From Rhizobium sp. Q54 (GTDB lineage Bacteria; Pseudomonadota; Alphaproteobacteria; Micropepsales; Micropepsaceae): 64,000 nucleotides of DNA. Location of the stretch: assembly GCA_945860165.1 (NCBI GenBank), contig CAMAPL010000008.1, forward strand, positions 1 to 64,000, given 5' to 3'. The notes under the pieces are model-generated. The model was not told the DNA's origin. It saw only the letters and a list, made by a program, of their open reading frames with translations, and did no database searches. The translations under genes were made by a program, and so were the position numbers. Below, piece after piece: positions 31,209 to 34,795 of this stretch (position 1 is the first letter of the stretch; each line of letters begins with the position of its first letter).

Positions 31209-33185
31209 TCAGATCGCAAAGGCTTCCGCCGTCTCCCCCGCCAGCCAGCGCCGCCACATCTCCAAATAGGCAGTCTCCATATTGCGCCGGAAGCGGTCGG
31301 TATCGAACAGGGCGCAGGTCGCGCGGTTCTTCGCCAATTTCTCCCGGATTGCTTTCAAGTCGTTCGTTTTTTTGGCCAGGCTCACCGCCAGCACTTCGTA
31401 ATCTACCGTATTTTCCGTCACCAGTTCGGGCAGGCCAGTCGCCAGCAGCACGCTTGTCGCCACGCGTCCTGGAAACGCCGTGCCACGGCACGTCAACACC
31501 GGCACGCCAGCCCATAGCGCATCGCTGGCGGTGGTGTGGGCATTGTATGGCAGGCCGTCGAGAAACAGGTCGGCCAGACTGAGCCGCGCCAGATGCTGAT
31601 CCGGCGGACGGTCCGGCGCGAACGCGATGCGTTCCGGCGCCACGCCATGCGCTTGCGCGTGGCGCGCGATATTTTCCGCGAAGGGCGCCGCCGCTTCCAG
31701 CAGCCACAGCACGCTGCCATCCACCTGTTTGAGAATGCGCATCCAACTGTCGAAGGTGCCGGGCGTCAGCTTGTAGCTCTGGTTGAAATTGCAAAAAATA
31801 AAGGCATCCTCCGGCAGGCCGGCGTCACGGCGGCTGGGTGGGGTGGAGATGGGCCGGCCGCGATCGTCATTGACTTGATAGCTGCCGGGCAGGGTGACGA
31901 CCTGCTCGTCATAGAAACGCGCTTCGCCTTGGGGGATCACCACGGCGTCGGCGATGATGTAATCCATATAGGGCGCGCCCAGGGTGCCGGGGAAACCCAA
32001 ATAGTTGACCTGGACCGGCGCGGGGCGTTGGGCGAACACACCCATGCGGTGCTTGCCGAAATAGCCGTTGAGATTGACCAGGATGTCGATCTCCGCCGCA
32101 CGGATTTTGGCGGCGGCCTGCGCATCGGTTAGGCCGCCAATCTCGATCCATTGGTCAAATGTCTTTTTCAGCCGCGCGGTCATGGTGCAGGATGCGGCAC
32201 TGCCATTGTCCACCGCGATGATCTCGAACCGTTCGCGGTCGTGCCGCTCATAAAGGCCCGCCATCAAAATGGCGGTGGCCTGTTCGCGAAATTCGCCCGA
32301 CAGGTATCCCAGCCGGATTTTCGTGGCGCCTTTGCGTGTGGCGGGATTGTGGGCTGCCACAGCTGCTTGGGGATAAAGATCGCCGGCATATATGCGGGCG
32401 CAGGCCTGAAGCTCGGCGGGATCGTCCGACAGTGCCTGTAGCATGAAGGGCCGTGCCACTCGTCGGCCATCGCGAATGCCTTGCGCGATTGCCGCGCGCT
32501 GCGGCTCCAGTTCCTCCCATTCGGTGACATACATTTTCAGATGCAGCACGCCGCCCGGCGCATAGGGAATGTCCGGCGCCAGGGCCAGCGCCTTTTGCAG
32601 GTCGGCGATGGCAGGGGCGTAGCGGTGTTTGCTCAGCCACCAGACATAGCCGCGATTGTTCAGCGTCTCGACATGACCGGGTTGCAGCGCCAGAGCGCGG
32701 TCATAGCTGGCCAGCGCGTCGTCGGCGCGGCCCAGTTCGCCCAGCACCACGCCGCGCTTGAACAAGGCCTGCACGTTGTTGGGATCGCGCGCCAGCGCAG
32801 TCTCATAGCTGGCCAGCGCATCCTCCAGCCGGTTCAGTCCCTGCAGGGCGTTGCCGCGATTTGTCAGGGTATCGGCATCAGGGGCAATCGCCAGGGCGCG
32901 GTCATAGCTCGCCACCGCTTCGACAAACCGGCCCAGCAGGGTTAGGACATTGCCATAATTCACCAGTGCGCCCGCATCTTTGGGGTTTTCTTGCAGGGCG
33001 GCGGCGATCAGGGTGCGCGCTTCTTCTATACGGCCCTGCTGCGCCCGCAACACGCCCAGCATATGGCGCGGCGCAAAGGCCTGCGGCGCGCCCGCCAAGA
33101 TTTGCAGATACAAGCTTTCCGCCTCCGCCAGCTGGCCGCGCTGATGCAGCGAAGCGGCCTGGCCGTATAAATCCCCTGATGGCAT
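31209..33185 (-). CDS. TPR protein with SPINDLY-type O-GlcNAc transferase (GT41) domain
   Basis: From ATG 33185 (MPSGDLYGQAASLHQRG) the product is 658 aa. Residues 5 to about 215 hold six TPR units (VNYGNVLTLLGRFVEAVASYDRALAIAP and similar). The GT41 catalytic half starts near residue 290 (RLGYLSGEFREQATA) with VQVNYLGFPGTLGAPYMDYIIAD, FCNFNQSYKLTPGTFDSWMRIL, LPYNAHTTASDALWAGVPVLTC and FPGRVATSVLLATGLPELV. These proteins transfer GlcNAc or other sugars to protein Ser/Thr; some alphaproteobacterial relatives modify flagellin. The 58 extra codons up to 33359 overlap the divergent gene and are not used. Confidence 0.9.
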   Translation of the reverse strand: MPSGDLYGQAASLHQRGQLAEAESLYLQILAGAPQAFAPRHMLGVLRAQQGRIEEARTLIAAALQENPKDAGALVNYGNVLTLLGRFVEAVASYDRALAIAPDADTLTNRGNALQGLNRLEDALASYETALARDPNNVQALFKRGVVLGELGRADDALASYDRALALQPGHVETLNNRGYVWWLSKHRYAPAIADLQKALALAPDIPYAPGGVLHLKMYVTEWEELEPQRAAIAQGIRDGRRVARPFMLQALSDDPAELQACARIYAGDLYPQAAVAAHNPATRKGATKIRLGYLSGEFREQATAILMAGLYERHDRERFEIIAVDNGSAASCTMTARLKKTFDQWIEIGGLTDAQAAAKIRAAEIDILVNLNGYFGKHRMGVFAQRPAPVQVNYLGFPGTLGAPYMDYIIADAVVIPQGEARFYDEQVVTLPGSYQVNDDRGRPISTPPSRRDAGLPEDAFIFCNFNQSYKLTPGTFDSWMRILKQVDGSVLWLLEAAAPFAENIARHAQAHGVAPERIAFAPDRPPDQHLARLSLADLFLDGLPYNAHTTASDALWAGVPVLTCRGTAFPGRVATSVLLATGLPELVTENTVDYEVLAVSLAKKTNDLKAIREKLAKNRATCALFDTDRFRRNMETAYLEMWRRWLAGETAEAFAI

Positions 33186-33192
33186 CGAAGTT

Positions 33193-34023
33193 GTGTCCGG
33201 CCTGCTTGCGTCGCTGCGCCAGAAGCTTAAAATCCGCTTCTTCATGCAGCAAGAAGCTGACATTACCGTGGTCGTCACATCGTGCAACCGCCATGACCTT
33301 CTGGCGCGCACGCTGGAGAGCTTTCGCAGCCACGAAAGCGAGGGCCGGGTGGCACGCATTCTGGTGGCCGAGGATGGCGACGCTGACCCGGGCGATGTCT
33401 GCCGGCGCTTCGGCGCGGACTATTTTAGCACCGGGCAGCGGGTCGGGCAGATACGCCTGATCGACCAGGCCTATGCCCGCGTCACTACCACGTTCATCTT
33501 TCATCTCGAAGACGACTGGGAGTTCTATCGCTCGGGTTTTATGGAGCGCAGCCGGGCGCTGCTGGACTCCGATCCTGCAATCCTGCTGGTGCAGCTCAGG
33601 GACTGGAACGATAATAACGGCCATCCCTTGAGCTTCGCGGCGCCCGACCGCAGTTATGGCGTGCTGGCCACCGGCTATTGCGACTGCTGGCATGGCTTCA
33701 CCCTCAATCCGGGCCTGCGGCGGCTGTCGGACTATCAACGGCTGGGCGGCAGTTACGAACGCCAGCCCAAAACCATGTTTGTGGTTGCGAAAACAGCCAC
33801 GGCGGCGTTGCCCTTCGAGGTCGAGGCCAGCGCCTTCTATCACCGGCTGGGATATCGGGCGATGATCCTGGATGAAACCGGCTATGTCCGCCACATCGGC
33901 GATGCGCGCCATGTTACGCATACGGACGACGCCAGATCGCAACTGCAGGGCATGTCACGCAACGATCCGTGCCCTTGCGGCTCGGGCAAGAAGGTCAAAC
34001 ATTGCCACGGTGCCCTAGTCTGA
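33193..34023 (+). CDS. GT2-like glycosyltransferase with C-terminal SEC-C zinc motif
   Basis: The 276-residue product has a GT-A start (ITVVVTSCNRHDLLARTLESF), ILVAEDGD, and an acidic metal-site motif FHLEDDWEFYRSGFM near residue 100. It also has a C-terminal SEC-C motif (RNDPCPCGSGKKVKHCHG), a zinc site usually found on SecA and on diverse other proteins. A GTG at 33193 is taken as the start; ATG 33244 is an alternative with TTGCGT-N16-TAAAAT just upstream of it. The start codon lies only 7 bp from that of the divergent GT41 gene, so the two glycosyltransferases are probably co-regulated. Confidence 0.82.
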   Translation: MSGLLASLRQKLKIRFFMQQEADITVVVTSCNRHDLLARTLESFRSHESEGRVARILVAEDGDADPGDVCRRFGADYFSTGQRVGQIRLIDQAYARVTTTFIFHLEDDWEFYRSGFMERSRALLDSDPAILLVQLRDWNDNNGHPLSFAAPDRSYGVLATGYCDCWHGFTLNPGLRRLSDYQRLGGSYERQPKTMFVVAKTATAALPFEVEASAFYHRLGYRAMILDETGYVRHIGDARHVTHTDDARSQLQGMSRNDPCPCGSGKKVKHCHGALV

Positions 34024-34054: not shown

Positions 34055-34795
34055 ATGAAGAAATTCGTCCTGCTGCTTGCCTTGCTGCCCACGCTGGCCG
34101 TGGCGCAAGCCCCCAACCCGCCGGTCAAACCCGAGCTGACCGAGTTGTGGACGCCAGTGCCGCGCAAAGTCGCGCCGGGTGCGAGCGTCGGCCAGCCGCC
34201 CTCGGATGCGATCATCCTGTTCAACGGGCGTGACTTGAACAACTGGGAAGGCGTCAATGGCGGCAAGGCCGCCTGGGTTGTCGGCGACGGCGAATTCATC
34301 GTTGCGCCCAAATCCGGCTCGATTCAGACCCGAGAAAAGTTCGGCGATGTACAACTGCATGTCGAATGGATGATTCCGGTCCTGCCGCCGGCGCGCAAAG
34401 CTCAGGACCGCGGCAATAGCGGTATCTTCCTGCAGGGCCTGTATGAGGTGCAGGTTCTCGATTCGCTCGATAATCCCACTTACGTCAATGGCCAGGCCGG
34501 CTCGATCTACAAACAGTATGCGCCGCTGGTGAATGCGCAGAAGCCGGCCCCGGCATGGCAGAGCTATGACATCATCTATACGGCGCCGCGCTTTTACGGC
34601 GACGGCAGCCTCGCCGAACCGGCGCGGATGACGATCTTCCTCAACGGTATTCTGGTGCAGCACAGTGTGCCGTTGCTGGGTCCCACGGAGTATCGCGGCA
34701 TCCCGGTCTACAAGGCGCATGGCGATGGCGTGCTGATGCTTCAGGCCCACAACAACGAAGTTCACTACCGCAATTTCTGGCTCAGGAAGCTTTAG
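34055..34795 (+). CDS. DUF1080 (3-keto-disaccharide hydrolase-like) secreted protein
   Basis: The 246-residue protein has a signal peptide (MKKFVLLLALLPTLAVAQ) and the DUF1080 jelly-roll domain: IILFNGRDLNNWEG, WVVGDGEFIVAPKSGSIQTREKFGDVQLHVEW, GNSGIFLQGLYEVQVLDS and the end HYRNFWLRKL. Family members include hydrolases of 3-keto sugars and many uncharacterised lectin-like proteins. It follows the GT2/SEC-C gene by 31 bp and may share its transcript. Its last 14 bases overlap the broken BLUF gene on the other strand. Confidence 0.88.
   Translation: MKKFVLLLALLPTLAVAQAPNPPVKPELTELWTPVPRKVAPGASVGQPPSDAIILFNGRDLNNWEGVNGGKAAWVVGDGEFIVAPKSGSIQTREKFGDVQLHVEWMIPVLPPARKAQDRGNSGIFLQGLYEVQVLDSLDNPTYVNGQAGSIYKQYAPLVNAQKPAPAWQSYDIIYTAPRFYGDGSLAEPARMTIFLNGILVQHSVPLLGPTEYRGIPVYKAHGDGVLMLQAHNNEVHYRNFWLRKL

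Follow-up and report, generated by a model that had tools for sequence, protein, structure and literature searches.

A glycosyltransferase (GT) of predicted GT-A fold that ends in a SecA-type SEC-C metal-binding domain is encoded at 33244..34023, on the forward strand of the window, by which we mean the whole stretch of 64,000 nucleotides that was analyzed. This fusion, here termed GT-SEC-C, recurs in related genomes with its tail conserved and under constraint, and it is paired with a divergently encoded GT41 enzyme. The genome also has matches to SecA and to SecB (168 bits). We tentatively propose that GT-SEC-C and GT41 might together modify proteins before these are exported by Sec, with the tail docked to SecB or to the ribosome, a reading that we consider possible but short of probable.

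A glycosyltransferase with a SecA-type tail

The open reading frame at 33193-34023 (+), 276 amino acids counted from a GTG codon, is present just as the original prediction gave it. Pfam places the protein in two families, Glycos_transf_2 (PF00535) at residues 25-142, with 27.6 bits against a cut-off of 23.3, and SEC-C (PF02810) at residues 256-273, with 35.8 bits against a cut-off of 20.4. The remaining Pfam matches are two weaker GT models, SecA motor domains are not among them, and neither Pfam nor NCBIfam gave a match above cut-off that spans both GT and SEC-C. With both domains exceeding their cut-offs and the arrangement recurring across genomes, the predicted fusion of a GT2 enzyme to a C-terminal SEC-C is real. 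Translation probably starts at the ATG at 33244 rather than at the GTG at 33193, itself a possible start, because the position of the Met is kept in orthologues and stops occur upstream of it. A Met stands five residues ahead of the D of DITVV in nine of the 10 complete copies (in the G015 copy the closest one is three residues ahead), and the G077 and G090 copies have in-frame stops a few residues upstream of the likely Met.

The catalytic domain occupies 33262..33900 (+), residues 24-236 of the 276-residue reading, as delimited by PF00535, an AF2 model and matches in the PDB. It contains the EDD of LEDDWEF (33508..33516, +), an acidic motif that is invariant in all 16 rows of the alignment and that we take to be the DxD-type nucleotide-sugar/metal motif. 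The AF2 model, computed from 14 input sequences (pLDDT 79.6, pTM 0.76), predicts a GT-A fold: the GT-A domain is confident, pLDDT falls below 50 at residues 238-248, and a small element at the C-terminus is of intermediate confidence. Its best 50 structural matches are GT-A enzymes, with Z scores of 15.2-17.9 over 175-200 residues; GalNAc-T2, POMGnT1, GnT-I, B4GALNT1 and BcsA (cellulose synthase catalytic domains) are among the matches listed, at Z 15-18, and SpsA heads the Foldseek list. Since many GT-A families are tied in this search, neither donor nor acceptor can be read from the fold.

Behind the catalytic domain lie a fast-evolving linker (33901..33954, +), which covers the low-confidence residues of the model, and the SEC-C mini-domain itself (33955..34017, +), with the ligand pattern CxCx8CH. 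Conservation of the C-terminal cysteines, a point on which the original prediction depended, was borne out, as the three Cys and the His are kept in all 10 complete orthologues. In nine pairwise comparisons with the window copy, amino acid identity was 70-92% for the GT domain, 39-67% for the linker and 76-95% for SEC-C. The corresponding dN values were 0.06-0.22, 0.22-0.66 and 0.02-0.15, with synonymous change broadly alike across the segments and saturated in some of the short ones (18-21 codons). The linker changes two to four times faster, and the codon constraint on SEC-C equals that on the GT domain. Low dN in SEC-C combined with retained ligands argues that the tail is constrained and not decaying. 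These same observations make it highly improbable that the tail was fused by chance and is a functionless fossil of SecA DNA, even though it does resemble the SecA tail of its own genome at the protein level.

The tail is of the SecA type. By sequence it matches solved SecA tails such as the SecA peptide in 1OZB (E 2.5e-7), a complex with SecB, and its KHCHGAL end, in which few residues are free to vary, is common to the SecA tail of the same genome. The C-H ligand pair typical of SecA is found in 15 of 15 GT-SEC-C proteins (the 11 orthologue loci and four others described below) and in six of the 37 other non-SecA SEC-C proteins retrieved, namely three of 17 inside the genus and three of 20 outside it, the latter picked mostly among the class matches listed; the other 31 have C-C. 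Two sulfatase maturases of other origin (L109, L111) also have C-H, which the search pattern demanded.

Distribution and relatives of the fusion

The source genome (G000) comprises 2.48 Mb in 42 contigs; at E 0.001, SEC-C is matched in it twice, by SecA (G000:C1) and by the GT-SEC-C reading frame. Orthologues of the latter were found in 10 of 69 genomes of the genus (G000, G001, G015, G017, G035, G077, G085, G086, G090 and G092), in G017 as the last 56 residues alone at a contig end, and record DITZ01000024 (L074) supplies an eleventh locus. Its presence in nine further genomes of the genus and in this record disfavors chance or an artefact of a single MAG. A SecA tree was built from 53 sequences, two of them from outgroup genomes and the other 51 from among the 69 genomes of the genus. 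In it the orthologue is confined to a single 13-genome clade (support 1.0) and is carried by 10 of its members; most simply, it would have been gained once, in that clade.

The original prediction would also have fallen had the fusion turned out common and annotated; in the sampled set it is confined to the genus, and no SEC-C was found at the ends of 15 relatives from outside the clade (L079-L081, L083-L086, L137-L139, L156-L160). Further relatives are L110, L115, L161 and, at 30% identity, one in G002 (L008, L038). The GT family is itself rare, with profile matches in four of 289 genomes of the class at E 1e-15 and in eight of 398 genomes of the phylum at E 1e-12, the source genome counted in both. 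Eight loci on viral contigs hold 45-residue pieces with 36-38% identity, and a mobile origin was considered, with no plasmid match obtained. A full-text search covering few subscription journals did not turn up the fusion in print; in PMC10222054, the mentions of SEC-C and of a GT concern different proteins. Judged from the sequences, the fusion is lineage-restricted within the sampled genomes and appears to be a novel combination of known parts.

Among the relatives that lack SEC-C, the closest (L079) shares 67% identity, and its locus of 16.7 kb gave no match to GT41. The Methylobacterium copies end directly after the GT domain, and L156-L159, from one family of another class of the phylum, carry at the position of SEC-C a tail with a basic stretch and a hydrophobic part that, judged by eye, would anchor them in the membrane. 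These other tails make the C-terminus of the GT look like a swappable address tag. Two further relatives (L151 and L152, 37-40% identity) have neighbors that by eye look glycosyltransferase-like and of a surface-glycan type, one of them tested with Pfam, which makes a glycan acceptor as plausible as a protein.

The latter two relatives, together with the four basic-plus-hydrophobic tails, favor an alternative in which the GT builds part of a surface polysaccharide or LPS and SEC-C serves metal-dependent stability, iron or redox control, or membrane proximity. It also fits that iron is cited as a ligand of SEC-C-type domains in PMC8076867 and PMC6620043. However, within its clade the GT-SEC-C gene lies outside any evident polysaccharide cluster, and its constant neighbor is a GT41 gene, from a family for which the papers listed concern protein-modifying enzymes. 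We regard this alternative as rather unlikely.

Among the Methylobacterium relatives, an autotransporter gene lies beside L081 and L084, as assigned by Pfam, and beside L083, as recognized from its sequence end; for L080 it was not seen in the one neighbor run through Pfam. At L083, where the GT is split over two frames, GT92-like and GSCFA genes come next, and the locus is possibly one for a glycosylated adhesin. An autotransporter was considered as a hint to the substrate in the window, and none is evident near its GT-SEC-C gene.

SEC-C is also found on other GT-type proteins. Four of these, unlike the one in the window, end in SEC-C in G007, G008 and G024, at three further places in the SecA tree, of which some deeper nodes are weakly supported. 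The G007 protein matches DUF5672 (72.3 bits, above cut-off), which we take to be GT-like. For the three others, the GT assignment does not reach the Pfam cut-off: Glyco_tranf_2_4 in G008 (23.1 bits, cut-off 27.5) and, in G024, Glyco_transf_8 (21.2 bits, cut-off 24.3) and a weak GT2-like match (16.3 bits, cut-off 27). A search of the genus with the G008 protein at E 1e-12 matched one of 69 genomes, its own. In sequence searches of the PDB with these other GT-SEC-C proteins, L056 and L057 gave no match up to E 0.1, and L037 matched SEC-C tails and nothing else.

Most of the 172 genomes sampled across the class show a single SEC-C match each among the matches listed. From these matches 20 places were chosen, mostly frames of 170-630 residues, and L044 was added; by Pfam, the 21 outside-genus proteins include nine YchJ-like, six UPF0149 and four DUF1186 proteins and one SecA fragment. 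By Pfam, no GT is among the 20 non-SecA proteins so chosen from the class at large. Inside the genus, 31 non-SecA SEC-C proteins were fetched, of which 14 are GT-type (10 of them one orthologue) and 17 are others, comprising UPF0149, TPR, radical SAM, DUF1186 and TPR-sulfotransferase proteins and a rest without assignment. Radical SAM sulfatase maturases with a C-terminal SEC-C were also seen, two of them (L039 7637-9214, L109 6945-8267) above the cut-off of TIGR03942; L065 8420-9868 and L111 6678-8084 are anaerobic sulfatase maturases with the same C-terminal domain, by likeness. Anaerobic sulfatase maturases modify sulfatases that are bound for export. In L042 3138-5012 (G003, a genome without a GT41 match), SEC-C lies at the N-terminus of a TPR and sulfotransferase protein. 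Further SEC-C proteins of the genus are L062 7867-9378, with no other Pfam match, L059 7298-8023 and L055 7280-8131.

The GT41 partner and the gene neighborhood

The gene divergent from GT-SEC-C, listed at 31209..33359 (-) and more likely to start at an ATG at 33185, encodes a SPINDLY/OGT-like GT41 enzyme with TPRs. It belongs to GT41 by PF13844 (278.7 bits against a cut-off of 25), and TPR models match as well. The original prediction had suggested counting how often GT-SEC-C genes adjoin GT41/SPINDLY genes: the two are divergent and adjacent in all 10 informative loci, the locus left out (G017) beginning inside the GT gene. The contig ends inside GT41 in the G092 locus and in DITZ01, and in G092 the GT41 gene is split across two contigs. 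Beside the G077 gene, the GT41 alignment falls into three pieces and more than one frame, and this copy may be broken or mis-assembled. In the three loci that are settled (the window, G035 and DITZ01), 59 bases separate the GT41 ATG from the GT ATG, and the short intergenic stretch (33186..33243) is likely a shared control region.

On the other side, 31 bases downstream and co-directional, a 3-keto-disaccharide hydrolase (DUF1080) gene lies at 34055..34795 (+; PF06439, 135.3 bits), its product having a signal-peptide-like N-terminus by eye. DUF1080 adjoins GT-SEC-C in 10 of 11 loci. In the G015 locus (18 kb fetched), the genes from DUF1080 through ClpA were not found and the GT41-GT pair is kept. 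The DUF1080 protein could be a client or a bystander, and with this possible exception, itself missing from the G015 locus, no substrate gene is tightly linked to GT-SEC-C.

The pairing is reflected in gene content. GT41 orthologues with 64-82% identity that reaches into the N-terminal part accompany GT-SEC-C. In G066 and G079, members of the same clade, neither GT-SEC-C nor the partner GT41 orthologue was found, the top GT41 match being 58% identical and without the N-terminal part. G036 has the GT41 orthologue without its GT-SEC-C pair, on a contig of 3,965 bases that stops at the start of GT41. Across the genus, GT41 is present in 36 of 69 genomes, some with multiple copies, as compared with 13 of 13 genomes that have a GT-SEC-C protein (Fisher p 7.5e-5, kinship ignored). 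Because kinship is uncorrected and, by the tree, the events that count as independent number about four, this co-occurrence is at most suggestive of a real association.

Constant pairing, and the fact that both genes are not found in G066 and G079, also suit a second alternative, in which SEC-C provides a protein-protein contact within a glycosylation complex, for example between the GT and the TPRs of GT41, with neither Sec nor the ribosome involved. Against this stands the KHCHGAL end shared with SecA, tempered by the few residues free to vary in it. In addition, no GT41 match was found beside the four other GT-SEC-C genes within the loci fetched. We consider such a contact unlikely.

GT41 genes are numerous in the source genome, where 22 GT41 profile segments correspond to 11 genes on C5, C8, C11, C14, C17 and C37 (L140-L146 and the window). 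Three lie in a row on C17, and the one on C14 is followed downstream, on its own strand, by CofD-like, HAD, NTP-transferase and NDP-sugar-epimerase-type genes. Flagellin glycosylation of the FlmG kind was considered for the GT41 partner, and the genome gave no flagellin (PF00669) match, which makes flagellin an unlikely acceptor.

A proposed role before Sec export and its known counterparts

To return to the reading proposed at the outset, GT-SEC-C would be a soluble, cytosolic GT-A enzyme that acts in protein glycosylation as the partner of the TPR-GT41 protein. GT41 might add the first sugar and GT-SEC-C the next or a parallel one. The SecA-type tail, on its flexible linker, could dock the GT to SecB or, alternatively, the ribosome, and clients bound for Sec would then be glycosylated while unfolded and prior to export. 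We infer which sugar comes first, that the acceptor is a protein, what the tail docks to and that the step is coupled to export. The occurrence of SEC-C on four other GT-type proteins, together with the other tails on relatives of the GT, makes the tether idea stronger than it would be from one sequence. Several points weigh against the proposal: GT41 is not matched in the loci fetched for L079 or for the four other GT-SEC-C genes, L151 and L152 lie among genes of a surface-glycan look, and DUF1080 is at best the one tightly linked substrate candidate.

A broader and more speculative extension, which we think unlikely, is that SEC-C acts as a portable tag that brings unrelated protein-modifying enzymes (several GT types, a TPR-sulfotransferase and sulfatase maturases) to the clients of Sec ahead of export. 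GT-SEC-C and GT41 would then make up a glycosylation machine coupled to the general Sec route in a Gram-negative bacterium. Docking of the tail to SecB or the ribosome, if real, would reveal a way for Gram-negative cells to fit protein glycosylation into the narrow time that separates synthesis from Sec export. It would also assign SEC-C a role beyond SecA, among proteins that are mostly uncharacterized. The GT family conveniently offers a test set, with members that carry SEC-C, members without a tail and members with other C-terminal tails.

Several known systems share features with the one proposed here. The sulfatase maturases are likewise cytosolic enzymes with SEC-C at the end and act on export-bound proteins; they would be a parallel to GT-SEC-C by analogy, but are radical SAM enzymes and not GTs. 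YecA (UPF0149) and YchJ of E. coli are also non-SecA proteins that carry SEC-C, yet they have no glycosyltransferase domain. The C-terminal MBD of SecA (PF02810) resembles the tail in its CxCx8CH pattern, basic residues, preceding flexible linker and C-terminal place. According to PMC6620043, SecB binding requires this MBD, and when fused to SUMO the MBD co-sediments with ribosomes. However, the MBD sits on the SecA motor, whereas the tail of GT-SEC-C sits on a GT-A enzyme and its binding there is putative.

Among glycosylation systems, FlmG of Caulobacter has the TPR and GT architecture of the GT41 partner and is described in PMC7591256 as a TPR and GT-B enzyme that modifies flagellins; this substrate sets it apart from the GT41 partner, whose genome has no flagellin match. 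HMW1C, a GT41 enzyme, glycosylates the HMW1 adhesin in the cytoplasm ahead of Sec, according to PMC3983070. Here too the constant partner is of the GT41 family, and it is predicted to be cytosolic. HMW1C differs in having another N-terminal domain instead of TPRs and in being able to act alone, whereas the GT-SEC-C locus adds a second GT with SEC-C and has no linked adhesin. Finally, the accessory Sec system of streptococci, with its Gtf enzymes and Asp2, ties glycan modification to a Sec export route as our proposal does. Its proteins are unrelated to those described here, and the coupling, which is a proposal for GT-SEC-C, is shown there, Asp2 linking glycan modification to accessory-Sec export (PMC5578698).
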